Source: Mucilaginibacter gossypiicola (GTDB taxonomy: Bacteria > Bacteroidota > Bacteroidia > Sphingobacteriales > Sphingobacteriaceae). Taken from it: a stretch of 64,000 bases of DNA. The position numbers and the translations under genes are program-made. The DNA lies in contig NZ_FOCL01000016.1 of assembly GCF_900110105.1 (NCBI RefSeq), positions 1 to 64,000 on the forward strand. The letters are read 5' to 3'. Positions 37,790 to 51,813 of this stretch are shown here, piece by piece. The notes beneath the pieces are model-generated. The model had not been told where the DNA came from and ran no database searches. It saw nothing but the letters and a program-made list of their open reading frames with translations. Numbering within the stretch: position 1 is the first letter of the stretch; every line of letters begins with the position of its first letter.

Positions 37790-40700
37790 TTATAACGCTC
37801 CGGCAACGGTTTTCTTTACCAACGTTGTTGCAGCGGCAGTTTGCCTTCCGAAAGTAGAGGCGGCAGAACTGATACCTGAAGTGGAAATTATCCAGGTAGA
37901 GATGCTGGGTACCGTGAACATAGCGATAGCGCCGATCAGGAAAGTAATGATAACTATACCAAATGATAATATACCGTTACCTGCGAAACGAGTTAATTCA
38001 GCCATTTTATTTATCGTTTCGGTTCCGTGGAGCAGACCTTCATAGCGGCTGATCTCAACGGTTAAAGCATATTGCTGAATATAGGCAGATAACCACATAA
38101 TGAGATAAGCTATCGCCCCGTAAAGGTTCACCGATACGAACCGGGCGATCCACGTGGTAAAACTATCCCGGAACGCGGGCAAGATACTGACCGCGACAGC
38201 AAACGGCCCGAGCAGCACAAGGATGCTTGAATAAAACACCTGTATGAAGAACACAAAATAAGTAGCTATTCGCAGAATCCATACGGCAAGCAGTTCAAGC
38301 AGTTGCGTAAGCAGCAATTGTATGCTGATCTGTAGTCGCTCTTTCAATTCGAGTATCGGGGTAACAATGGTAGAAATTCCTTTTTTGACGGTACTCGTTA
38401 CTTGATCCCAGGCCTGGTCATACCATGTATCAGATTCCTTGGCAGCAACTTCCGTCTGTGCCTGGAAATTATAAAGGCTGTCAGCCATTTCCTTCATCAA
38501 CTGCGCCCTTTTCACCCGCAGGTTATCCGCTTCGGTCTGTGCGCCTTTCCATTTCTCCTTGGATTGATTTTCCACTACCTCGCATGGAAAGGCGACTACC
38601 TTGACGAAGACGTTCCACCATAAAATGATCATCGCCAGGCTGAATGGCCTGAGCAATGGCATAATTTCAAGTTGCTTATCGCCAACCATCATTTCGTAAG
38701 ACTTTATGGCAAAAAATATGATCATGAAAATAGCGGATAACGCTTTTGCATCATCTATAAATGTTATACCCTCGCCCCAAATAAGGTTCCGTTTATTCTT
38801 CAAACTGCTTTTAACGAGCAGCCGCGATAAAATTAACGGCACAGCATGTCTCTTTCTCTGTGATTCTTTGCTTTCAATAGGTTGAGCTAACACTTTATAA
38901 CCCAAATCAAGAAAATAGCTAATCAGTCGGTTACATTCTGCCCGGGGTACTTTATTGATGAAACTCCTTGTGAGCAGTTCCTTCGCACTTTTTTCCTGTC
39001 CGGAACGCATGATCAATCCCAATGCCCATGACGTCGAAGAAGGACCAATTCGAAGTATGGCTTCTTTTAAGGGTTTATCACCATAGGTCGAATTTCCGAT
39101 TTTTGGTGGAATACCTGTATCTTCCAAATACCGTATAAACTGGTAGGCTGAAAGCAGGTCTTTGTTAGTGCTTCCGAGATGGTGTGTCGTTGATTTTTTG
39201 CCGATTCGAAATTCTTGCACGTCCTCAACTTCTGTGAAATCACGGGCTGGATGTTCAAGCATGAGCTCGAAGGTTTCCAGTTCCTGCCACGGATCGCAAT
39301 TAAACAATCTCAAATTGTTCTGGCGATCTACAAAATCTTTGCTATCGGCCTCCAGGCGTAGTATGTCCTTTGCAGCGGTAATGCTTCTAGTTACATACCG
39401 GAGCAATTGCATTAATAACGCTTCTTGTGAGACCCATGTGAAATCCGTTAGGTTATCGACCCTCGGCGTTCGCTTACGTACGCTGGCCAAAGCCTGCTCC
39501 AAAATAAGTGCCGCCTCGCTCGCGTTACCGGTTTCTGCGAGTAGCATGGCCCTTTTACCTTCCCAATAAGGCAGGCCCGGATTTGGCGGCCATTCCGAAA
39601 TACATTTTGTAACAACCTGATGATCCAGCGCATAAAGATGAAAAAGACATTTTTCATACCAGATACTCGCTATCCTTTCCCCTTCTAAAAATGGAAGAAA
39701 GCTGTCCATAGTGGAGGCACAGGCTTGCCATCGGTTGACAAAGCCTTCTTCACGATAATAACGCCAAACATTGAAATAGATAGACAACCATTGCTCTTCT
39801 AGCTGACCGCCTCGCCTGTTCGTGATGTTTTCGGTGACTTGGTGTTCATATTTTTGAAGTAAGGCCTCGTAGCTCGGCAGATCACTATCTTGTATGGGGC
39901 AAAGGCAACGCTCCATCCGCCAGTTGTATTCATAGAGTAGTTGGATATCTTCAGGGCCTAAAATCTCTGAAATTTTTGACCTGCTTAATCGGAAATTACG
40001 CGTCACGCTCCAAAGGTCTTTGCGTTGCTGAAGCGGGGCGATCAGCCAGTTTGGATAACTGAGACGGAGATCAGTCCAATGCTGCAATATTTCAGATGTC
40101 TTATGTGGCAGATCATTCTCAGTATAATGGACGGGCTTATCAGGCCAGTCAAGAGGGCGTTCGTTTTCGCGATAGTGCTGCAAGTAATCGAGAAATTTCT
40201 GTAAAAGTTCCTGGTGAGCCGGCTGTTGTCCTTCCTCGTTCAGCTTGACGACAATAATATTGCGCGTTTGAAGAAGGCGGCGTTGGGCGTCGGATAAATT
40301 CGACGACCCCACGAGATATATTTTAGGCGCGTTGTTGACGCCTAGATTGTCGTTTATCCAACTGATCCAGTTTAAGAAGTTGGGATCGTCCGCAGAAAAG
40401 CCAAGTAGACAAAAGGTATTTTCAAGTAGAGACTGTTGAACCGTATTGACAAAAGGAGCAAAGTCATGCGGATATTTTCGGTAATCTTCTTCACTGACAA
40501 TAAATGGCCGTTCTGATGGCATGCTGCCATGTAGCTTGACAATCCGCGGTTGCTCAGCAAATATTAGTTCATTCTTGTTGACAACAAGGTCGTACTTATA
40601 ATTATATACATTTTGACTTGCTCTTTCGAGTAACGTATCATAATTCGTCGTAAAGATATCGGTCCAGGGCAAGTTGAGCAGCCCAATATGGACATCGGAG

Positions 40701-41029
40701 GGACTATGATCAAGGTCTGGTAAGCTATCAATGACGAGTTTGTCCAACACCGGTCGACCAAAAGCGGCCTGGACCTCATCAGCTATCTTTAATATATTAA
40801 GATAGGTTTCTTTCGTGCCTGGTTTTTTGCCATTTAGTTTTTCATATAAAAGATCGCCAAGACCGGGCCACGTGGGGAAGTCCGGTTTGGTATGGTCATT
40901 TTTCTGGGCATTCCTGCTAAAACCTGATCCGATCATGACTGCCGCATGCTTCGACCAGAGGCGCTCCGCGATCTCTTTTATATAAGGCCTAGCATCTGCC
41001 GGGAATTCATTTATATCTACAGTTTTCAT
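37790..41029 (-). CDS. SIR2-domain protein fused to a TraJ C-terminal region
   Basis: 1079 residues in one frame. Residues 1-260 are a SIR2-like NAD-binding domain: VMIGSGFSRNA, IFTTNYDTLLERA, VKLHGSMPS, CLLGFSADD. A helical region follows to about 735, as in defence-associated sirtuins that deplete NAD after phage attack. From about 745 the sequence changes to a membrane protein matching Bacteroidota conjugative-transposon TraJ: AKALSAIFMIIFFAIKSYEMM, EIMPLLRPFSLAMIILWWN, a coiled segment, then helices to the end (ATYFVFFIQVFYSSILVLLGP). The join looks like a recombination scar in which traJ lost its start. Whether the fusion is stable and functional is unknown. Confidence 0.85.
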   Translation of the reverse strand: MKTVDINEFPADARPYIKEIAERLWSKHAAVMIGSGFSRNAQKNDHTKPDFPTWPGLGDLLYEKLNGKKPGTKETYLNILKIADEVQAAFGRPVLDKLVIDSLPDLDHSPSDVHIGLLNLPWTDIFTTNYDTLLERASQNVYNYKYDLVVNKNELIFAEQPRIVKLHGSMPSERPFIVSEEDYRKYPHDFAPFVNTVQQSLLENTFCLLGFSADDPNFLNWISWINDNLGVNNAPKIYLVGSSNLSDAQRRLLQTRNIIVVKLNEEGQQPAHQELLQKFLDYLQHYRENERPLDWPDKPVHYTENDLPHKTSEILQHWTDLRLSYPNWLIAPLQQRKDLWSVTRNFRLSRSKISEILGPEDIQLLYEYNWRMERCLCPIQDSDLPSYEALLQKYEHQVTENITNRRGGQLEEQWLSIYFNVWRYYREEGFVNRWQACASTMDSFLPFLEGERIASIWYEKCLFHLYALDHQVVTKCISEWPPNPGLPYWEGKRAMLLAETGNASEAALILEQALASVRKRTPRVDNLTDFTWVSQEALLMQLLRYVTRSITAAKDILRLEADSKDFVDRQNNLRLFNCDPWQELETFELMLEHPARDFTEVEDVQEFRIGKKSTTHHLGSTNKDLLSAYQFIRYLEDTGIPPKIGNSTYGDKPLKEAILRIGPSSTSWALGLIMRSGQEKSAKELLTRSFINKVPRAECNRLISYFLDLGYKVLAQPIESKESQRKRHAVPLILSRLLVKSSLKNKRNLIWGEGITFIDDAKALSAIFMIIFFAIKSYEMMVGDKQLEIMPLLRPFSLAMIILWWNVFVKVVAFPCEVVENQSKEKWKGAQTEADNLRVKRAQLMKEMADSLYNFQAQTEVAAKESDTWYDQAWDQVTSTVKKGISTIVTPILELKERLQISIQLLLTQLLELLAVWILRIATYFVFFIQVFYSSILVLLGPFAVAVSILPAFRDSFTTWIARFVSVNLYGAIAYLIMWLSAYIQQYALTVEISRYEGLLHGTETINKMAELTRFAGNGILSFGIVIITFLIGAIAMFTVPSISTWIISTSGISSAASTFGRQTAAATTLVKKTVAGAL

Positions 41030-41290: not shown

Positions 41291-41533
41291 TCGAACCATA
41301 AACTGTACGGTTCGAATTCCGCCCAGTCAGGGATTGTTAAAAGTGCTTTAATTCGCTTAAAACACGCATTTGATCAATTAAGTGGTTCGAATTCCGCCCA
41401 GTTAGGGGATGTTAAAAGTGCTCTAATGAGCTTAAAACCCGCATTTGTTCTAATAGTTGGTTCGAATTCCGACCAGTAAGGCATCATAAAAGAATCACTA
41501 ATTTTCTCAAAATTCGCACCTGATGTTAGGCCG
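41291..41533. repeat. 75-bp-period tandem repeat, locus A (three units)
   Basis: Units begin at 41309, 41384 and 41459, exactly 75 bp apart, each with ggttcgaattccgcccag or a close variant, then 'ttaaaagtgct.taat..gcttaaaa..cgcattt'. The third unit is diverged. The lead-in at 41291-41297 (tcgaacc) is the exact complement of the first unit's ggttcga. The core resembles a tRNA T-arm. Short ORFs read across it are periodic artefacts. The remainder of 41030-42063 shows no other gene; it is very AT-rich after 41750 and should contain the precursor promoter. Confidence 0.8.
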
Positions 41534-42063: not shown

Positions 42064-42267
42064 ATGAAAAAGAACCTTTATTTAAAAAGTTTAAGTAACT
42101 ACAAGAGCCTTAAAGCGGATACCTACAACACTACATTTGGAGGTTATGCGTCTACTGACCACGACGATTCAAATACCTTTGACAATTCACAAAGTTTCGA
42201 TTCATCTGATGAAAATGACAATTCAGTCTCAAATGACTTTTCATTTAGTTTGGACAATGTTTGGTAG
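42064..42267 (+). CDS. RiPP precursor peptide 1 (double-glycine leader)
   Basis: 67 residues. Leader of about 27 residues with the family pattern KSLSNYKSLKADT and a Gly-Gly site in TTFGG, the expected cut for a C39 peptidase. The roughly 40-residue core is nearly all Asp, Ser, Asn, Phe and Thr (YASTDHDDSNTFDNSQ onward), ends FSLDNVW and has no Lys or Cys. Repeated D-S and S-D pairs would suit Ser/Thr-to-Asp ester macrocycles made by an ATP-grasp ligase. It matches the style of 'grasp-with-spasm' modified peptides. Linkages are inferred, not seen. Confidence 0.8.
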   Translation: MKKNLYLKSLSNYKSLKADTYNTTFGGYASTDHDDSNTFDNSQSFDSSDENDNSVSNDFSFSLDNVW

Positions 42268-42310: not shown

Positions 42311-42514
42311 ATGAAAACCTTAACTTTAGTAAGCCTAACCAATTTCAAATCATTGACCGCTGAAACTTTTAATTTTACAATTGGCGGTAAAGCATCGCAA
42401 GATCATGATGATTCCAGCACCTTCGATAGTTCGAGCAGCTATGACTCATCCGATAGCAATGATAGTTCAAATAGCACGGACACAGAATCTTTGAGCTACG
42501 ATAACGTATTGTAA
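42311..42514 (+). CDS. RiPP precursor peptide 2 (double-glycine leader)
   Basis: 67 residues, a clear paralogue of precursor 1, 43 bp downstream. Leader MKTLTLVSLTNFKSLTAET with Gly-Gly in FTIGG. Core KASQDHDDSSTFDSSSSYDS and on, ending SLSYDNVL, parallels precursor 1 position by position (DHDDS, TFD, YDSSD/FDSSD, YDNV/LDNV). The only Lys is the first core residue. A good terminator 36 bp after the stop makes 1 and 2 a separate bicistronic unit that can be expressed far above the enzyme genes. Confidence 0.8.
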   Translation: MKTLTLVSLTNFKSLTAETFNFTIGGKASQDHDDSSTFDSSSSYDSSDSNDSSNSTDTESLSYDNVL

Positions 42515-42666: not shown

Positions 42667-44016
42667 CTAATTAACAAGATTGATTGTTATGGAGTTTACC
42701 CAAACAATGCTTTTATCCTGACTTTTTTTCAATTGTCCTAAATAGAAATTTTTATCCGGCTTGACTAATTTTTTGAACAATTCTTTATTGTTAACAACCA
42801 CGCTTATTTGTTTATTCAAGTCTAACATTTTAGGACTTATAAGCAGTGTAAATTTTGTTATACGTGATGTTAAAATGTTAATTGTGTTATTGTGAATTTC
42901 TGCCTTTATAGCTGCACTTTCATCTAACTTATAATAGTCAAACGGAAAATAGGATTGCATTTTTTTATTGTATGCTTTAAGGTTGAATATTTTGTGCCAA
43001 GCAGCTCTGGGTAAGTTTAAATCCCAACTATTAACTTCTATCCAACTAAGACCTTCAAACAAAGAATTACTGGTCTCCCAATAGAGTTGTTTGGGGTATG
43101 GATTTCGGAATGTATTCGTAATGAATTTAATACTGTTGGGATAATCAATATCTAAATGTTTGTCTTCATGCGTGTAACCAAAATATTCCTTGTATTCCAA
43201 GGGCACATGTAAGGAATCCAGAATTTTAACAATATCTCTCGTTTGTTGAATTGGTCTAATATCGTCTTTGTCCGAATGTACAAGGCGAAGTGGGCGGTTG
43301 ACCGCATTAGCGATATAAAGATCATGAGCAAATATGTTGGAAAGCTTAGAATTATAAGCAATCATACCAGCGAAAATTGTAGGTTTATACAAGTCAAATG
43401 CAAAAGCACCATCCGATCCATCAGAATGTCCAAACACAAATACCTTACTGTCATCAAAATTGATTGTTTTCTTTAGTTCATAAATGATATTTTCAAGTGT
43501 ACTAAAAGTATAGTTTTTACTACCTCCAAATGAATTTGCAGCCCAATCAAACCCTTTACCGGGATCAGCAAATGGCTTTACGACGATGAAATTGGAATTG
43601 CAAAGTTTCGAATAAAAAGGATCGTCATCCGGCTGCACTTTTGAATTCTCAGCATCGGAAAATTTGGATTGCCCCACTGCTCCATGAAGTAATAAAATAA
43701 CAGTATGGCGCTGACTGGGATCATAGTTTTCCGGGATATAAAGTTTGAATGGAACATTTCCAAACACGGAATCCTGCATAAAGAATATATGTTCGCCTGT
43801 GAATTTGTCTAATGATGGATAATTATTAAAATTATGGATCTCATTAATAAGCTTTTCAAATGAAGAGTTTGCTGAAGTATTCACGGTTTGGTCGATGGAT
43901 ACTCTCGGCAAATCCTTGATGCTTACGGTTTGTGCCATTCCATTCAATTTGAAGCACGAGAATAACAACGTGATAAAAATATTGTTTAAATATTTGTTTT
44001 GATTTAAAATTTTCAT
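42667..44016 (-). CDS. Secreted alpha/beta hydrolase (esterase/peptidase-like) in the RiPP cluster
   Basis: 449 residues with signal peptide (ending near NGMAQ). An alpha/beta-hydrolase fold spans about 90-320: oxyanion strand VILLLHGAVGQ, nucleophile elbow FGHSDGSDGAF with Ser198, an acid candidate in VHSDKDD and a catalytic His candidate in GYTHEDKH. A C-terminal beta-rich domain of about 120 residues (KAEIHNNTINILTSRITKFTLLI) resembles those on bacterial feruloyl esterase-like proteins. It is encoded opposite to all other cluster genes, between the precursors and the receptor. Hydrolysis of the cluster's own ester-linked peptide is an attractive hypothesis; a general carbohydrate or peptide esterase is the alternative. 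Confidence 0.75.
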   Translation of the reverse strand: MKILNQNKYLNNIFITLLFSCFKLNGMAQTVSIKDLPRVSIDQTVNTSANSSFEKLINEIHNFNNYPSLDKFTGEHIFFMQDSVFGNVPFKLYIPENYDPSQRHTVILLLHGAVGQSKFSDAENSKVQPDDDPFYSKLCNSNFIVVKPFADPGKGFDWAANSFGGSKNYTFSTLENIIYELKKTINFDDSKVFVFGHSDGSDGAFAFDLYKPTIFAGMIAYNSKLSNIFAHDLYIANAVNRPLRLVHSDKDDIRPIQQTRDIVKILDSLHVPLEYKEYFGYTHEDKHLDIDYPNSIKFITNTFRNPYPKQLYWETSNSLFEGLSWIEVNSWDLNLPRAAWHKIFNLKAYNKKMQSYFPFDYYKLDESAAIKAEIHNNTINILTSRITKFTLLISPKMLDLNKQISVVVNNKELFKKLVKPDKNFYLGQLKKSQDKSIVWVNSITINLVN

Positions 44017-44189: not shown

Positions 44190-46454
44190 ATGAATAAACA
44201 TCTAAAAATACTTTTAGCGACTCTTATTTGCATTTTTTTTAAAAACAACTCCTTCGCCACATCGGGAGTATATTTAGCAAAAGGCGATTTGAAACTAAAT
44301 GAAGCCCATAGAAGACGTAGCTGTATTCAACTCGATACAGGAAGGCACCAAAACATTATCATTAAAGATACAACTAAACAAAAAGCCGATACGTCCCGAC
44401 TAAGAAACAACGTGTTAAAAGGGGTTACAATTAAGGGTAAAAGGGTATTGCTCGTACAAAACGTTGACCGGTCAATTGTCACAGTCGAAAATAACAGGTT
44501 GTTTTTAGGAAGTAATCTTGAAGAAGTTTTAGAAAAAATACCGGGTGTTACTATTGATGGCAATAATCACCTTATTGTCAACGGCAATGGATCAGTAAAA
44601 TTTCAGATAAACGGAAGAGATATTCCAATTTCTGGTAATTCAATTTCATCATTCTTGAAGTCGATTCAATCTTCTGCCATAAAATCGGTCGAAATAATTA
44701 ACCCCTCGGCTAAGTCAGACGCCCAAAGTTCGGCTAAAATTTTAAATATAAATACTGTACAACAAACAACAGATGGGTTTACGCTAAGTCCAGGGTTAAC
44801 ATATTCTCAAGGTAAGTATGCGCGAACTGGAATAAATTTATTTTCCCAGGCAAAAGTTAAAAAATTCACCTTTCAATTACTTTCATTTGCCGATCTGTCA
44901 AATGAGTATTCTACCGAGAAGTCGTCGCGAATTTTTCGAAACACGACAAATTTCATCAATGAGTCGAAAGCATTGAACCGCAAAAGATCTTATCTAAACA
45001 AAATTGACATCAATTATAATTTTGATAAGAAAAACATTTTAGGACTAAGTTTCTATAACACACAGTCAAACCAGAAAAATTCAACTAACTCATTTTTTGA
45101 ATTTAGAAATAACACATCTCCGGACTCTTCATACTTGAACAACAGTTTGGGTAAACAAAACTTATCCTATTCAATTTATAGTGGCTATTTTAAACATGCA
45201 TTTGATGAAGATGAGGAATATATTTCTTTTAATGTCGATGTCAACAGAGCTACAAACAGACAAAACTACTTATTTACAAATCAGTCTATTTATTCAACTG
45301 TCGACTCCATCGGTACCAGATTAGATCAATCAACGCATTCCAACTCTAGCCTCTGGGTGCCCTCAGTGTACATAAACTATAGCAAACCATTGATAAAAAG
45401 TACGGGGCGTTTAGATCTTGGTCTGAAATATACTTCCACCAAAGACCACGAGTATTATGACGGCCAAAATGACTTAAATAACGCCTATTCATATAATGAA
45501 TCAGTTGCTGCCGGATATGTTTCTTTCTTATATGACAAGAAAGCATTCAGTTTTCAAGGTGGGTTTAGAGCGGAAAATTCGAGTACTAAGGGCGAGATAA
45601 ATAATAATTCAGTGACCGATAAAAAATATTTTAACCTATTCCCTTCCATCTCTTTACAGCGGAAATTTCATAACGATGACTACATTGTTTCCGTAAATTA
45701 TAGGAAAAGAATTATTCGGCCCACATTCCTGGCGTTAAGTCCTTTTCTTTATTTTACTTCTCCTTATGAAGCATTCCGCGGAGATGCGACGTTATCCCCC
45801 ACACTGATAGACGATTTTAATGCGTCATTTACTATTAAAGGGGTATACATCAACGCCAATTATAGTAGTATGCATAATGTGATATCGCAGTTGCCAATAA
45901 TTGACGATTCACTTACTACTATTACAAATCAATATATCAACATTGGTGCCGAGCATTACCGCTCGATCAATGTATCTTATCCATTCAACATAAAAACTGT
46001 TAGCCTCACACCTAGCGTGAATGCCGAATCCGCATCAAGCCACTTGACGATAAATTCTCAGAATCTGCTGAAGAACACCAGTGATATTTCATTTAACTTA
46101 AATGGGGTTTATCGCTGTGATAAGACCAGCAGATTCGAAATCAGGTCGTTTTATGTTCCTAAAGTGATAACGGTATCATCTACCATAAACCACAAAAGTG
46201 GCGTGACGATAAGATATATAAAAACGTTCTTAGACGGTAATTTAAGCATGAGAGCTGCAGTTGAGGATATTTTTAATGCCAATAAAGAAAGTGGATCAAA
46301 CAATTTCGGTGGATATGTAGGAACATTTTCAAATTTCTATGACAACAGAAGAGCCAGCCTTTCTTTAACCTATTCATTAAGAAAAGGAAAACGCGTGAGT
46401 ATTAACGCTCCGGGACAGGAAAATAGTGATACTAACGAAAGAATAAAAAACTAA
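44190..46454 (+). CDS. TonB-dependent-receptor-like outer-membrane barrel
   Basis: 754 residues with signal peptide (MNKHLKILLATLICIFFKNNSFA). There is no carboxypeptidase-regulatory domain; a short linker leads to a plug-like region (about 80-190: LKGVTIKGKRVLLVQ, VLEKIPGVTIDGN, INPSAKSDAQSSAKILNI) and a barrel of the 'outer membrane beta-barrel family' type (YRKRIIRPTFLALSPF, SLTYSLRKG). A similar but larger receptor lies at 54.1-56.5 kb. It is divergent from the hydrolase with 173 bp between, and in line with the modification genes 43 bp downstream. It may import, sense or export the modified peptide. Confidence 0.85.
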   Translation: MNKHLKILLATLICIFFKNNSFATSGVYLAKGDLKLNEAHRRRSCIQLDTGRHQNIIIKDTTKQKADTSRLRNNVLKGVTIKGKRVLLVQNVDRSIVTVENNRLFLGSNLEEVLEKIPGVTIDGNNHLIVNGNGSVKFQINGRDIPISGNSISSFLKSIQSSAIKSVEIINPSAKSDAQSSAKILNINTVQQTTDGFTLSPGLTYSQGKYARTGINLFSQAKVKKFTFQLLSFADLSNEYSTEKSSRIFRNTTNFINESKALNRKRSYLNKIDINYNFDKKNILGLSFYNTQSNQKNSTNSFFEFRNNTSPDSSYLNNSLGKQNLSYSIYSGYFKHAFDEDEEYISFNVDVNRATNRQNYLFTNQSIYSTVDSIGTRLDQSTHSNSSLWVPSVYINYSKPLIKSTGRLDLGLKYTSTKDHEYYDGQNDLNNAYSYNESVAAGYVSFLYDKKAFSFQGGFRAENSSTKGEINNNSVTDKKYFNLFPSISLQRKFHNDDYIVSVNYRKRIIRPTFLALSPFLYFTSPYEAFRGDATLSPTLIDDFNASFTIKGVYINANYSSMHNVISQLPIIDDSLTTITNQYINIGAEHYRSINVSYPFNIKTVSLTPSVNAESASSHLTINSQNLLKNTSDISFNLNGVYRCDKTSRFEIRSFYVPKVITVSSTINHKSGVTIRYIKTFLDGNLSMRAAVEDIFNANKESGSNNFGGYVGTFSNFYDNRRASLSLTYSLRKGKRVSINAPGQENSDTNERIKN

Positions 46455-46497: not shown

Positions 46498-47472
46498 ATG
46501 ATAGTTATCCTCTCATTTAGTTATTATGAACAAGGTACAGATCCAGTTATTGACTGGCTATTATATTATAAGGTTCCATTTGTTAAAATTTGTGTCGAAG
46601 ATTTATTGACGAAGAGTCATGAATATAATTTAGACGTCAATACCGGTAGGCTTTCCATAGCTGGGACAGACATTACAGACAAAATTAAGGTGATATTTTT
46701 TAGACGATTTTATCGCTATCTGCAATTCGAAAATAAAGAAACCTTGGGGGAAATTTCCAGAAAAATATTTTATGAGTCAAATGAAGAATTAAATGGATTG
46801 ACTCAATTTTTATATAAAATATTTGAAGAAAAAATTTGGTTCCCCAGACCTGAAGTTGTCAATGTTAATAAACTGACGATTACCTACATTGCAAGTAAAT
46901 TAGGGATTAAAACGCCCAAATCGGCTATAATAAATAACAAAAATGATGTTGTCAAATTTCATAATTCGTGCAGCCAGGGTATCATAAATAAACCGATAGG
47001 AAGACTAAGTTACTATACGTTCGGCAGATACACTTACAACACTTACACTACAAAATATACTGAGGAAAAGATTGAAAAGCTTCAAAATTCGTTTTTCCCC
47101 TCTTTATTTCAGGAGGCTGTAATTAGTCAATATGAAGTTAGGGTCTTTTATATTGACGGTGATTTTTATGCGACAGCGGCGGTTTCAAGCAATAAAGATC
47201 GCAACATTGACATCAAACGAAGTTTTAATACGAAGGAATTGCGTTGGATTCCTTATGCTCTGCCGGAAAGTGTAAAGTTGGATATTACTAAATTAATGAA
47301 GGAAATTGATTTAGTTACAGGCTCAATTGATCTCTTGGTAGACGATGAGAACAATTTTACATTTATTGAAGTCAACCCTGTCGGTCAATATTTGGCACCC
47401 TCAAATCAAAGCAACTATTATATAGATAAAATAATCGCAGAATGGCTAATAAAAAAATTGCAGCTAGCATAG
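46498..47472 (+). CDS. gwsG: ATP-grasp peptide maturase, grasp-with-spasm type
   Basis: 324 residues. N-terminal pre-ATP-grasp region (MIVILSFSYYEQGTDPVIDWL, VIFFRRFYR), then the ATP-grasp fold: a nucleotide-binding strand (GIINKPIGRLSYYTFG), an external-element motif (FQEAVISQYEVRVFYIDGDFY), and the metal/ATP site TFIEVNPVGQYLAP, close to the FxEVNPxGQ of microviridin and other graspetide ligases. These enzymes activate Asp/Glu side chains as acyl-phosphates and join them to Ser/Thr/Lys as esters or amides. With Lys-free precursors, esters are expected. Four cotranscribed genes follow with overlapping ends. Confidence 0.88.
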   Translation: MIVILSFSYYEQGTDPVIDWLLYYKVPFVKICVEDLLTKSHEYNLDVNTGRLSIAGTDITDKIKVIFFRRFYRYLQFENKETLGEISRKIFYESNEELNGLTQFLYKIFEEKIWFPRPEVVNVNKLTITYIASKLGIKTPKSAIINNKNDVVKFHNSCSQGIINKPIGRLSYYTFGRYTYNTYTTKYTEEKIEKLQNSFFPSLFQEAVISQYEVRVFYIDGDFYATAAVSSNKDRNIDIKRSFNTKELRWIPYALPESVKLDITKLMKEIDLVTGSIDLLVDDENNFTFIEVNPVGQYLAPSNQSNYYIDKIIAEWLIKKLQLA

Positions 47473-47708
47473 TTTCAAATGATGAAGATACTCCGTTTGA
47501 TGAGGAGCTCTTGCTTAAAATACCATTAGGTTATAGATCTATGGTTAAAAAGGAAACGGAATTTATTGGAGAACTATATCGACGTGTGAAGTTTAGTGGT
47601 TCTAAGCTTTTTCAGTCGAATCAGTACTCGAATTTCCCGTCACATAAACCAATTTCGAATCTACTACTGGATTTAAGAATTCAAGAAACCATTGAAACAG
47701 ATGAGTAA
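47442..47708 (+). CDS. Unknown 88-residue RiPP-cluster protein
   Basis: 88 residues, overlapping the end of the ATP-grasp gene by 31 bp and the next gene's ATG by 8 bp, so almost certainly translated with them. Acidic start (SNDEDTPFDEELLLKIP) and a basic, aromatic middle (YRRVKFSGSKLFQSNQYSN). No signal peptide, no membrane helix, no cysteines. I do not recognise a family. Position between ligase and SPASM partner suggests a role in leader recognition or complex assembly, which is inference from gene order only. Confidence 0.7.
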   Translation: MANKKIAASIVSNDEDTPFDEELLLKIPLGYRSMVKKETEFIGELYRRVKFSGSKLFQSNQYSNFPSHKPISNLLLDLRIQETIETDE

Positions 47709-48651
47709 GCATTTAATTCTCCACGCCCATTGTATCCCGGTTCGAGGTAAAGAACAAGGGGCTATATATGATTTACAAAAAGGGTCACTTATGTTCATTC
47801 CAAATTCGATGATTGATTTGATAGAATATATGAGGGACGAAAGCTATCATAAAACTAGAAAAGTGGTCAACTCTTTAGCGTTTTTCAAGGAGCATGTAGA
47901 TTTTATTTTATCGAATGGCCTAGGATTTTTTACCGATCACCCTCAGCGATTTATTGCTCTTCCCGATCAATATCATTCGCCGGAGGAAATATCGACAGCG
48001 GTTATAGAATACGGAGCTGACAAATTTGATTTAAAGTCCGTAATTAATGAATTGAATATGTTGCGTTGTAAACACATTGAATTCCGTTATATTGACTGTA
48101 ACCCTGATTTCTCAGAACTAAGAACATTGATTGGATACACAAACAATTCTACCATACGGTCGATTGAGCTTCATTTGACTCAAAACGAAAAGATAAGTAA
48201 AGTCAATTTACTCGGTCTGGCAGGCGAGTTTAAGAAGCTTAGAACAATTAACGTTCATAATTCAGCAAGTGCGGATTATGATTTTAAGAATAATATTTTC
48301 TTCCTTGAGAGCGATTGGAAAACTGTCGAGCAAAAACATTTTCCCCATGATGTGTACATTGTCAATATGAAGTTTTTTATGGAAAGTCAGAAGTTCAATA
48401 CTTTTTATAACCAAAAAGTCTGTATTTCCAGAGATGGGTATATTAAAAACTCCTTATTGAACGTAAGGCATTTTGGTCAATATAGTACAAATAATACACT
48501 TACAGATGTAGTTAGAACTGATGAGTTTAAGAAATTATGGTTTATTAGTCCGGATATGATAGAGGAAGTCAAAGAATCTGAAACGAGGTATGCGACCTTG
48601 TTTTCACAAGATGTAGAATTAATAGATGGAAAATATCATTTAATTCATTAA
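47701..48651 (+). CDS. gwsS: SPASM-domain maturase partner, grasp-with-spasm type, cysteine-poor
   Basis: 316 residues from ATG 47701. The middle is an alpha/beta repeat region (IEYGADKFDLKSVINELNML, HIEFRYIDCNPDFSELRTLI) like a radical-SAM barrel lacking its CxxxCxxC. The C-terminal part follows the SPASM layout of this family: FYNQKVCISRDGYIKN, HFGQYS, EFKKLWFISPDMIEEV, ETRYATLF. Cysteines expected after KN, in the 'C-x-DC' and in 'RY-x-C' are Ser, Val/Ser and Thr/other here; only the KVC cysteine remains. The Fe-S clusters are therefore probably not bound. It overlaps the exporter gene by one base (TAATG). Confidence 0.8.
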   Translation: MSKHLILHAHCIPVRGKEQGAIYDLQKGSLMFIPNSMIDLIEYMRDESYHKTRKVVNSLAFFKEHVDFILSNGLGFFTDHPQRFIALPDQYHSPEEISTAVIEYGADKFDLKSVINELNMLRCKHIEFRYIDCNPDFSELRTLIGYTNNSTIRSIELHLTQNEKISKVNLLGLAGEFKKLRTINVHNSASADYDFKNNIFFLESDWKTVEQKHFPHDVYIVNMKFFMESQKFNTFYNQKVCISRDGYIKNSLLNVRHFGQYSTNNTLTDVVRTDEFKKLWFISPDMIEEVKESETRYATLFSQDVELIDGKYHLIH

Positions 48652-50879
48652 TGAAGAGTCTGCAAAGCAAATTTGTCTTTTATCACCAAGCTGATCATAT
48701 GGATTGCGCTGCTACTTGCTTAAGAATGGTAGCTAGATACTACGGCGCAGACTATGATGTCTCACATCTGAGAGATTTGGTAAATACAACCAGGCAGGGG
48801 GCTAGCCTTGCTGGCATCCAAGATGGTGCAGGAGCGATCAGGTTAAAAACACTTGTATCAAAGGGGACAGTGGAAAATTTGGTTAAAGAGCACTTGTTAC
48901 CTGCGGTATTATATTGGAATCCAGATCACTATGTGGTACTTTACAAGATTTCCGAGACAAAAAAAGGCGAATACATATTCTTTATTGCCGATCCCGCACT
49001 TTCAAAATATAAAGTATCTGAAAAAAAATTTAGAGAAAAGTGGGTTAGTGACAACGCCGACGGTGAAGGATTGATCGTGTTTTTCGAGCCGGGCGAGGAC
49101 TTCATGGAAACATACGATGAATATGCGTTAAATTACGTGAAGCCATCGAGGCACTTTTACTGGGAATATGTTAAAGCTCACAAAGCCTCGTTCTCATTGA
49201 TATTGTTAATAACGATAATCTCTTCATTATTTAATCTGGTATTTCCTGTACTTACACAAAAAATTGTAGATACGGGCATCCCGAATAAAGACCTGTCACT
49301 TATCTCACTTTTCTTGTTGTTTCAGATTGGGGCATTTATTGGCAGTTCAGTGTTCGACATGGTTAAGGGTAGGTTATTATATGTTGTTACGACTAGAATT
49401 AATATAAATATATTAACAGAATTTCTTTTAAAGTTAACTAGGCTATCCGTTCGTTATTTCGACAATAAGGTCGCGAGCGATATTACGCAAAGAATTGCTG
49501 ATCATTCGCGCATTGAAAAATTCCTGACAACGAATTTGATTGGAACCATATTTTCGGTTTTCAACTTTGCTTTTTTTTCTTTCTTGATCTTAAAATATGA
49601 TTATAAGATTTTTTTAATCTTCCTGAGCATCACCGTATTTTCCATTTTATGGATGTTCATGTTTGTTAAGAGGCGTAAATCAATAGAATATAAGCGTTTT
49701 GAAGCATACAAGGATTCCTCAAATTCTTCATATGAAGTGATTTATGGAATGAAGGAACTAAAGTTGAATAATGCACAAATAGCCAAAATAGAAGATTGGG
49801 GTGTTGATCAAAAAAAAATCTACGCGATTAACAAAGAGTCGATGCTTTTGGAGCAGAGGCAAAATATAGGAAATGTCTTGATAAATCAAACCAGAAGTGC
49901 ATTAGTAACATTTTACTGCGCTTTTTTGGTCATCCACGGGAAGATATCAATTGGTGAAATGTTAAGTATTTCATTTATGTTAGGTCAATTATCATCTCCT
50001 TTTACACAATTTTTTGAATTTATTAAAGGATGGAACGAGGCATATTTCAGTTTTGATCGGATTAATGAAGTAAAGGAGAGACAAGACGAGGATGATGAAT
50101 TCCTCCCTCATGGTCATACCCTAAAAACAGTTTCGGCATTTGAAAGAATATTGATTTCTAATTTGAATTTTAAATACGATAAAAGTTCTCCGGTTAATGT
50201 TTTGGACGGCATCAATATTGAAATAAAAAAGGGGCAAAAGGTGGCTTTTGTTGGTAATAGCGGAAGCGGGAAGACTACATTGGTTAAATTGTTGTTGAAA
50301 TTTTACCTACCGTCTAAAGGAATTATTAGCGTAGACAGTAATGACTTAGCAGAGTTAGAAGCAAACAGTTGGCGGCAAAAATGCGGTGTTGTGATGCAGG
50401 ATGGATATATATTTTCAGCAACAATATTACAGAATATTTGCTTGGATTCGAAAAAAGTGGATCTGGAACGGGTTAAGCAAGTTTGCCATCTGGCGAACAT
50501 CAAGGATTATATAGAATCCTTGCCAAAAAAATATAACACCAAGATCGGCGGTTCCGGTGTTGGTTTAAGTGGAGGCCAAATTCAACGCATTTTGATAGCG
50601 CGGGCATTATATAAAAATCCTGAAGTGTTGTTTTTTGATGAAGCTACAAGTTCCTTGGATACGGAAAACGAGCGTATAATAATGGAAAACATTAATGAGT
50701 TCAGCACGGGTAAAACGCTCGTTGTTGTCGCTCATAGATTAAGTACTGTAAAAAATGCAGATATGATTTATGTTTTTAATAACGGTAAAATAGTGGAGGC
50801 TGGTAATCATGTTGAGTTATTGGTGAATAAAGGCTTTTATTATAAATTGGTTTCAAATCAATTGGAGTTATCAAACTAA
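48651..50879 (+). CDS. C39-peptidase-containing ABC exporter
   Basis: 742 residues. N-terminal C39 peptidase (about 8-150): catalytic Cys19 in MDCAATCLRMVARYYG, His in PDHYVVLY, Asp in IADPA; it should cut precursor leaders after Gly-Gly. A six-helix transmembrane domain fills about 175-460. The ATPase has Walker A GNSGSGKTT (about 534), signature GLSGGQIQR (about 640), Walker B VLFFDEATSSLD and switch His in VVAHRLS. It processes and exports the modified peptides through the inner membrane. No HlyD-type adaptor is in the window, so passage across the outer membrane needs other components. Confidence 0.95.
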   Translation: MKSLQSKFVFYHQADHMDCAATCLRMVARYYGADYDVSHLRDLVNTTRQGASLAGIQDGAGAIRLKTLVSKGTVENLVKEHLLPAVLYWNPDHYVVLYKISETKKGEYIFFIADPALSKYKVSEKKFREKWVSDNADGEGLIVFFEPGEDFMETYDEYALNYVKPSRHFYWEYVKAHKASFSLILLITIISSLFNLVFPVLTQKIVDTGIPNKDLSLISLFLLFQIGAFIGSSVFDMVKGRLLYVVTTRININILTEFLLKLTRLSVRYFDNKVASDITQRIADHSRIEKFLTTNLIGTIFSVFNFAFFSFLILKYDYKIFLIFLSITVFSILWMFMFVKRRKSIEYKRFEAYKDSSNSSYEVIYGMKELKLNNAQIAKIEDWGVDQKKIYAINKESMLLEQRQNIGNVLINQTRSALVTFYCAFLVIHGKISIGEMLSISFMLGQLSSPFTQFFEFIKGWNEAYFSFDRINEVKERQDEDDEFLPHGHTLKTVSAFERILISNLNFKYDKSSPVNVLDGINIEIKKGQKVAFVGNSGSGKTTLVKLLLKFYLPSKGIISVDSNDLAELEANSWRQKCGVVMQDGYIFSATILQNICLDSKKVDLERVKQVCHLANIKDYIESLPKKYNTKIGGSGVGLSGGQIQRILIARALYKNPEVLFFDEATSSLDTENERIIMENINEFSTGKTLVVVAHRLSTVKNADMIYVFNNGKIVEAGNHVELLVNKGFYYKLVSNQLELSN

Positions 50880-51035: not shown

Positions 51036-51257
51036 ATGAAAAAACAAACAATTTGTTTAGAAAATCTCTTGGATTTTAGAAGTGGAGAGCAACAAATCAC
51101 AATTTTGTCCACGACATTTGGTGGTGTCTATTGTCACGACGGTGATGTATCCTATTCACAAGACACCTCAACGTCAGGTGATGTATCACAATTGGATGAC
51201 AATTCGCAATCAACGGATGATTCGGAAACTTTGGATAGCAGTGATAACCATGATTGA
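51036..51257 (+). CDS. RiPP precursor peptide 3 (double-glycine leader)
   Basis: 73 residues. Leader with the CLENLLDF block and Gly-Gly in STTFGG. The core of about 43 residues (VYCHDGDVSYSQDTSTSGDV onward) repeats short Asp-Ser/Thr units and ends DSSDNHD, the same ending as precursor 5. There is one Cys in the core and no Lys. It follows the exporter by 156 bp and is probably the first of three tandem precursors. Confidence 0.8.
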   Translation: MKKQTICLENLLDFRSGEQQITILSTTFGGVYCHDGDVSYSQDTSTSGDVSQLDDNSQSTDDSETLDSSDNHD

Positions 51258-51360: not shown

Positions 51361-51585
51361 ATGACAAAACCTACAATTACCTTAGAAAATCTTCAGATTT
51401 TCAACACAAAAAATCAAATTGCAACCAATTTGTTTGCAACTTACGGTGGTGTTCTTCAATCACACGATAATGATCAATCGGATCAAAACGACTACTCTTA
51501 TTCGAATGATATTTCGGAATACTCGGATTCGAGCCAGCATAACGACGATTGTACTGCCGGTGACACCAGCGCATCAGCAGATTAA
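51361..51585 (+). CDS. RiPP precursor peptide 4 (double-glycine leader)
   Basis: 74 residues. Leader ITLENLQIF and Gly-Gly in FATYGG, then a core of about 44 residues rich in Asp, Ser, Asn, Tyr and Gln (SHDNDQSDQNDYSYSNDIS). It has one Cys (DDCTAG), no Lys, and ends SASAD. The leader block resembles precursors 3 and 5, whereas the core is its own, consistent with a shared enzyme set acting on diversified substrates. Confidence 0.8.
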   Translation: MTKPTITLENLQIFNTKNQIATNLFATYGGVLQSHDNDQSDQNDYSYSNDISEYSDSSQHNDDCTAGDTSASAD

Positions 51586-51603: not shown

Positions 51604-51813
51604 ATGAAAAAAATCAATTTAGAAAGTTTATCAAACTTTAAAGAACAATCCGGCAGCATCTTGTATGCAGTGCTAGGCGGGCAACAGTCAGTATCATATG
51701 ATACATCAGGTATTGGCGATACGTCAACGAATAATGATACGTCAACGGCCGCGGATAACTCCACTGACCACGATGGATCTGATTCTTACGATACATCAGA
51801 TAATCACGATTAA
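51604..51813 (+). CDS. RiPP precursor peptide 5 (double-glycine leader)
   Basis: 69 residues, 18 bp after precursor 4. Leader NLESLSNFKEQSG with Gly-Gly in YAVLGG. The core has the most regular repeat of the five, a D-T-S spacing about every 7-8 residues (YDTSGIGDTSTNNDTSTAAD), ending YDTSDNHD. It contains no Cys or Lys. The regular acid-hydroxyl spacing is what a repeated-macrocycle graspetide would need. A terminator lies 57 bp downstream. Confidence 0.8.
   Translation: MKKINLESLSNFKEQSGSILYAVLGGQQSVSYDTSGIGDTSTNNDTSTAADNSTDHDGSDSYDTSDNHD

Follow-up and report, generated by a model that had tools for sequence, protein, structure and literature searches.

In graspetides, side-chain links join Ser, Thr or Lys donors to Asp or Glu acceptors, as described in passages of PMC9576775. 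Passages of PMC8939145 name the canonical TIGR04193 proteins, the SPASM partners found beside such ATP-grasp enzymes, radical SAM enzymes, and propose the LPL family as a PqqD-like chaperone. The wording in passages of PMC13097080 is more careful ('SPASM-domain containing'); they also describe MirC, which is needed by a graspetide synthetase, copurifies with it and has a weakly RRE-like N-domain. For anSME, passages of PMC5682303 and PMC5715301 give the auxiliary-cluster ligands as residues 255, 261, 276 and 330 (Aux I) and 317, 320, 326 and 348 (Aux II). A grasp-with-spasm partner devoid of cluster cysteines was not reported in the passages found among open-licence PMC papers.

Such a Cys-less partner is encoded in the window, that is, the whole 64,000-nucleotide stretch of Mucilaginibacter gossypiicola DNA analysed here (genome size 8.2 Mb). 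The grasp-with-spasm operon around it is intact: four genes at 46498-50879, encoding an ATP-grasp enzyme, an 88-aa LPL-type protein, the Cys-less SPASM partner and a C39 ABC exporter, follow each other with head-to-tail overlaps. Five small Asp/Ser-rich peptides with GG leaders flank this operon. The features of the locus are:

42064..42267, + strand: predicted precursor peptide 1, GG leader, xxDxSx repeats
42311..42514, + strand: predicted precursor peptide 2
42667..44016, − strand: alpha/beta hydrolase, putative esterase (PF00756)
44190..46454, + strand: TonB-dependent outer-membrane beta-barrel protein, 5' of the operon (PF14905)
46498..47472, + strand: ATP-grasp peptide maturase, GwsG-like (TIGR04192 220.2 bits, cut-off 230)
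47442..47708, + strand: LPL-type gene for an 88-aa protein, overlapping the genes on either side (by position and the motif IPL...KPIS)
47701..48651, + strand: Cys-less SPASM partner, GwsS-like, 316 aa (TIGR04193 132.7 bits, cut-off 175)
48651..50879, + strand: C39-peptidase ABC exporter (PF03412 and ABC domains)
51036..51257, + strand: predicted precursor peptide 3
51361..51585, + strand: predicted precursor peptide 4
51604..51813, + strand: predicted precursor peptide 5

The Cys-less gene runs in an open frame from the ATG at 47701 to a stop codon ending at 48651 (316 aa, coding 47701-48648), and an alternative TTG start at 47692 would give 319 aa. The first base of the exporter gene overlaps this stop codon. 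The protein is paired in the genome with the grasp-with-spasm ATP-grasp enzyme, the pairing that TIGR04193 calls for, and the latter scores only slightly below the TIGR04192 cut-off; a genome-wide search of the window genome found no second match to either family. In seven of the eight sampled Cys-less loci the exporter lies directly downstream, and none was found within the 16 kb of locus L058. In L016 and L054-L057, too, the operon is preceded by a homologue of the TonB-dependent beta-barrel protein, and a homologue of the alpha/beta hydrolase lies near the L016 operon.

Two further features lie in the same window. At 37790-41029 on the − strand, a single 1079-aa frame combines two parts: residues 12-750 resemble the anti-phage sirtuin Dsr2 (NF041819, 925 bits, below its cut-off of 1400), and residues 761-1076 match conjugative TraJ (TIGR03782). 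The frame arose either by recombination that cut Dsr2 short inside a conjugative element or through a join made in the assembly. At 41309-41502 a 75-bp unit is repeated in tandem (2.3-2.6 copies). Its beginning, GGTTCGAATTCCG, is similar to a tRNA T-arm; ARAGORN detected no tRNA there.

We searched for homologues in 149 genomes of the genus, 399 of the family and 395 of the class, of which 13, 70 and 33, respectively, had a match; the class search used as query the alignment A1, built from the eight Cys-less proteins described below. Dereplication left 124 distinct homologues. Left out were fragments (G384:C64, G344:C20, G774:C19, G713:C70, G682:C1), a weak match in G061, an unrelated SPASM protein (L013, from G018) that was dropped at the profile threshold, and L134, a fragment from G273 with no usable ORF.

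The sequence-only reading had described a protein with just four cysteines that retains the SPASM layout, and both points were borne out: KVC, KN, HFG, F..LWFI and ETRY are all present, and four Cys were counted in total. It had also stated that nearly all SPASM cysteines were gone. The loss is real, and its extent is greater than stated. When 123 relatives were aligned, the eight columns that hold Cys in 65-94% of rows corresponded in the window protein to Q211, F235, S251, V290, S293, T299, S302 and a C-terminal gap, so that none of the eight ligand columns carries a cysteine. Its SPASM region keeps a single Cys, C241 of the 'KVC' motif; this falls in the column of the canonical 'KVSID' Ser, which is not a ligand column. 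The seven-cysteine SPASM motif CX9-15GX4C-CX2CX5CX3C-C, as given in passages of PMC5715301, is absent from the window protein. The radical-SAM motif CX3CX2C was found in none of the 124 homologues, the window protein included. The canonical members, too, are thus SPASM proteins that lack the motif of the radical-SAM cluster, and the premise that they are radical SAM enzymes needs correcting as far as the motif goes.

Among the 124 homologues the eight columns behave as two units. Columns 337, 364, 380 and 435 (set one) hold Cys in 65-69% of homologues, and columns 423, 426, 432 and 458 (set two) in 94%. By their match to the anSME ligands, set one corresponds to Aux I and set two to Aux II. 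By position, column 435 belongs to the run of set-two cysteines, three columns past 432, yet it co-varies with set one, much as in anSME the fourth Cys of the run goes with Aux I; column 337 is tentatively assigned to Aux I from its joint loss with set one. Counted as cysteines in set one and set two, the proteins fall into (4,4) in 80 cases, (0,4) in 34, (1,4) in two, (1,0) in four and (0,0) in four, the window protein being (0,0). Both clusters' ligands are thus kept in 80/124, Aux I is lost and Aux II kept in 36/124, and neither is kept in 8/124; no homologue of the 124 has the Aux I set alone. The possibility that most active members also lack these cysteines is contradicted by this alignment, in which 116 of 124 have no fewer cysteines than the full Aux II set of four. 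Four of the eight Cys-less proteins retain one stray ligand-column cysteine, that of 'KNC'.

The 36 homologues with Aux II only (e.g., L059-L068), in which Aux I is lost fully in 34 and down to one Cys in two, are perhaps as interesting as the Cys-less clade. Two loci, L018 (G124) and L145 (G739), each contain a two-cluster partner together with an Aux II-only partner, so that one genome can contain partners differing in their cluster sites.

The eight proteins without the Aux II set form one clade, both in a quick whole-length tree (123 rows, Cys columns removed; SH-aLRT 98) and in a more careful tree of the pre-SPASM part only (67 of the 124 rows; 99/97, with a bootstrap not fully settled). 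L143 is included in the count of 124 but absent from the 123-row tree. The ATP-grasp enzymes of the same eight loci also form one clade (support 99, 118 rows). The loss of both sets is hence not a chance event, since the window shares it with seven further sampled loci, and all eight fall into one clade. A single origin of the Cys-less clade is the only robust result of these trees. A straight order from two clusters to one to none was considered and rejected: it needs 2 changes in the whole-length tree, but 8 in the N-terminal and 11 in the ATP-grasp tree. As the trees are unrooted, we infer loss rather than gain of cysteines from the agreement of the ligand sites with those of true SPASM enzymes.

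The clade comprises 8 of the 399 genomes of the family sample and spans four genus codes: g1 (window, G043, G120), g14 (G314, G340, G442), g15 (G162) and g16 (G319). The class sample of 395 genomes contained no further members. With A1 as query, scores within the clade were 380-456 bits and the next match reached 241, a gap that is partly built in, as A1 consists of these eight. A scan of named genomes with the L055/L056 pair recovered both, L055 in Pedobacter sp. AJM and L056 in P. petrophilus, and revealed a ninth case with the same operon in Pedobacter terrae (L187), which stands outside all counts and trees. Pedobacter is a member of the Sphingobacteriaceae. The same scan with the window protein as query gave no match. 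In L187, L055 and L056 the 'KNC' Cys is the only ligand-column Cys kept. Between L055 and L187 the ATP-grasp enzymes are 96.9% identical and some precursors are identical, whereas the Cys-less proteins share only 74% identity, with saturated synonymous sites; the operon looks as if it has recombined internally.

AlphaFold2, run with a 95-sequence alignment (95 of the 124 rows), modelled all 316 residues of the Cys-less protein with a pLDDT of 95.7 and a pTM of 0.89. Cys-bearing relatives are among these rows, so the fold of the former SPASM region may be borrowed from them. The protein is predicted to consist of an RRE-like domain, a shortened barrel and a SPASM-like end:

47701..47949, + strand: RRE-like N-terminal domain, residues 1-83 (model pLDDT 95.7; TruD Z 8.4, MccB Z 8.0)
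47971..48315, + strand: shortened barrel-like segment, roughly residues 91-205, lacking CX3CX2C (model; boundary approximate)
48316..48648, + strand: SPASM-derived C-terminal region, about residues 206-316 (model and alignment; all ligand columns without Cys)

In Foldseek, all eight matches under E 0.001 were CteB and SuiB chains. VIA-align matched the model to PqqE (Z 12.3, residues 91-316), TigE (Z 11.3, 1-316), CteB (Z 11.2, 9-316) and anSME (Z 10.1). PqqE, SuiB and anSME align over about residues 91-316 with Z 9.8-12.3, which points to a SPASM-like fold of the C-terminal region. Residues 2-88 match the N-terminal domain of TruD (Z 8.4, rmsd 2.9, 85 aligned) and the first 88 residues that of MccB (Z 8.0, rmsd 2.8). 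These Z values are close to the 7 to 8 that this tool gives for models lacking a clear match. We take the N-terminal domains of TruD and MccB to be RREs. In the model this part shows the three strands and three helices of a PqqD-like RRE fold, and the order of its predicted secondary structure agrees. Sequence-profile searches of solved structures matched no SPASM enzyme and returned two weak, unrelated matches only.

The small gene at 47442-47708 lies directly upstream of the SPASM gene, carries the IPL motif and ends in KPIS, as expected of an LPL. A 79-88 aa gene was considered as a hallmark of Cys-less loci and rejected, since canonical loci have a divergent small ORF at the same place, corresponding to the LPL in passages of PMC8939145. 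A motif rule found a small ORF between the genes for the ATP-grasp enzyme and the SPASM protein in 8/8 Cys-less, 18/36 one-cluster and 47/80 two-cluster loci; it was shaped partly on the Cys-less loci and missed some small ORFs elsewhere. Such an ORF is general to the family. The LPL alignment comprised 60 of 62 listed candidates.

The precursor cores of the window, L016, L017 and L054 are tandem xxDxSx hexapeptides. In 11 of these cores, 69 of 100 Asp residues fall into one six-residue register (over 2000 shuffles the mean was 32.6 and the maximum 40). In 92% of 61 cases, the second residue after an in-register Asp is Ser. An Asp-Asp lag of 6 occurs in 76% in the repeat cores (z +14.8) and in 11% in 32 hand-picked cores of other loci (z +0.4). 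In two repeat units, one in the 51361 peptide and one in an L016 peptide, Cys replaces Ser. L055 and L056 have another acidic pattern, with Asp at lag 5, which is common to L187; L057 has a single acidic precursor candidate, and no precursor was found at L058 by the search rules used. In the hand-picked set, 3/22 precursors of Cys-less loci contain a core Cys vs 27/32 elsewhere. A fixed rule, which retained some unlikely candidates and missed the window precursors at 42311 and 51361, gave 2/20 for Cys-less, 33/39 for Aux II-only, 18/37 for two-cluster and 1/3 for the two mixed loci; by locus with candidates, the figures are 2/6, 17/21, 14/27 and 1/2. As the contrast between Cys-less and two-cluster loci is weak under the fixed rule, we do not claim it.

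The Cys-less protein is likely to be a pseudo-radical-SAM partner of the ATP-grasp enzyme encoded next to it, one that binds no metal, carries an RRE and brings leader peptides to that enzyme; its iron-sulfur clusters are presumably absent because their ligands are missing. It probably now serves only to hold the small peptide while the neighbouring enzyme forms the rings. The RRE-like N-terminal domain would bind the precursor leader (an L..L..F/Y pattern and a GG end), and the truncated barrel, the SPASM-derived domain and the LPL-type protein would form a scaffold that holds the core against the ATP-grasp enzyme. MirC, on which MirB depends, offers a precedent for such a partner (passages of PMC13097080). 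Given graspetide chemistry (passages of PMC9576775), the ATP-grasp enzyme would join Asp to Ser/Thr by side-chain esters in one xxDxSx unit of the tandem array after another. Cleavage at GG and secretion of the product would then fall to the C39 exporter. The suggestion of a metal-free scaffold or leader-binding subunit in the sequence-only reading fits these data, and the predicted RRE-like domain offers a structural basis for leader binding.

The same reading had allowed that the gene may be decaying. In that case the SPASM partner would have lost its function and its cysteines would be drifting away. This agrees with the TIGR04193 and TIGR04192 scores below cut-off and with the faster evolution of the Cys-less protein compared to the neighbouring ATP-grasp enzyme. 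However, the frames are open in eight sampled species despite mostly saturated synonymous divergence, the proteins form one clade and the operon is kept. Synonymous sites are saturated in most pairs compared, so that dN/dS is weak evidence, but no relaxed selection is apparent: pN/pS was 0.23, 0.21 and 0.25 in three Pedobacter Cys-less pairs and 0.24 (L004/L014) and 0.22 (L026/L034) in canonical pairs of like divergence. The window/L016 pair (45% identity) gave 0.39 vs 0.33 for the a little closer canonical pair L118/L119 (55%), and the closer canonical pair L008/L006 had a dN/dS of 0.084. The former SPASM region is the better conserved part of the Cys-less proteins, with 76.5 vs 69.5%, 54.9 vs 40.9% and 79.4 vs 71.8% identity compared to the rest. 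The window ATP-grasp enzyme departs only at L290I among 19 columns conserved in at least 93% of 118 rows, and those of all eight Cys-less loci show at most two conservative changes across these columns. Decay of the Cys-less gene is contradicted by these results, and we regard it as hardly credible.

The protein could instead still be a metalloprotein that binds clusters or another metal through non-Cys ligands or fewer cysteines, given that an Asp ligates Aux II in PqqE (passages of PMC5715301) and that the 'KNC' Cys persists in 4/8. The Aux II columns of the clade, however, hold V/I/F/L/Y, S/N/D/L and M/L/T/R/I, the C-terminal part of the eight proteins has no invariant Cys, His, Asp or Glu able to replace a ligand, and the lone C-terminal Cys of the window protein lies off the ligand columns, which makes this improbable. 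R296, Y297, W280 and G259 are conserved in all eight and could mark the active site of a metal-free enzyme with a new activity on the core peptide, beyond a scaffold. We find such an enzyme unlikely: the FG and RY motifs are general in the family and hence more likely structural, and neither Pfam nor NCBIfam gave a catalytic signature. There is also a small chance that the LPL-type protein binds the leader, consistent with its proposed chaperone role (passages of PMC8939145), and that the Cys-less protein is a stability partner of the ATP-grasp enzyme only, as MirB is unstable without MirC (passages of PMC13097080). The LPL model, however, was of modest confidence (pLDDT 78, pTM 0.37) and had no Foldseek match in the PDB, and thus lends no support to a PqqD fold, whereas the model of the Cys-less protein retains the RRE-like domain at high confidence. 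This suggests that the leader is bound by the RRE-like domain of the SPASM protein itself.

More tentatively, and with more doubt than confidence on our part, the clade as a whole may have discarded both auxiliary clusters and kept the partner role, as an RRE-bearing chaperone free of metal with whose help the ATP-grasp enzyme builds a ladder of repeated Asp-Ser esters on the tandem xxDxSx units. If so, the clusters of canonical partners would be unneeded for ring formation itself and tied to those other, possibly cysteine-containing, cores. The family offers natural versions with two, one or no cluster sites, none of them radical-SAM by motif, that can be compared in like operons; because they occur in the same kind of operon, the role of each cluster can be asked directly. 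Work in air should be simpler with the metal-free members, which could also expose a leader-binding role free of Fe-S chemistry.

Among described systems, the locus resembles the branch 5 graspetide loci of PMC8939145, which in the passages at hand are from Bacteroidota and combine an ATP-grasp enzyme, an LPL directly upstream of a TIGR04193 protein and GG precursors; in those passages the SPASM protein counts as a radical SAM enzyme, and a Cys-less form goes unmentioned. With TIGR04193 SPASM_w_grasp proteins the window protein shares full-length homology, the slot between the LPL-type gene and the exporter, and the missing radical-SAM motif, but it scores 132.7 against the cut-off of 175 and lacks all eight cluster cysteines. 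Its predicted overall fold (RRE, barrel and SPASM end) is like that of CteB, SuiB, PqqE and TigE, of which CteB and TigE also align over the RRE; it differs from them in the absence of CX3CX2C and of auxiliary-cluster cysteines and in its shortened barrel. Like MirC, the partner of the rosaritide synthetase (passages of PMC13097080), it is the partner of a graspetide ATP-grasp enzyme and has an RRE-like N-domain, weak in MirC. MirC, however, carries a SurA-like C-domain, and the likeness drawn here is one of role and N-domain.
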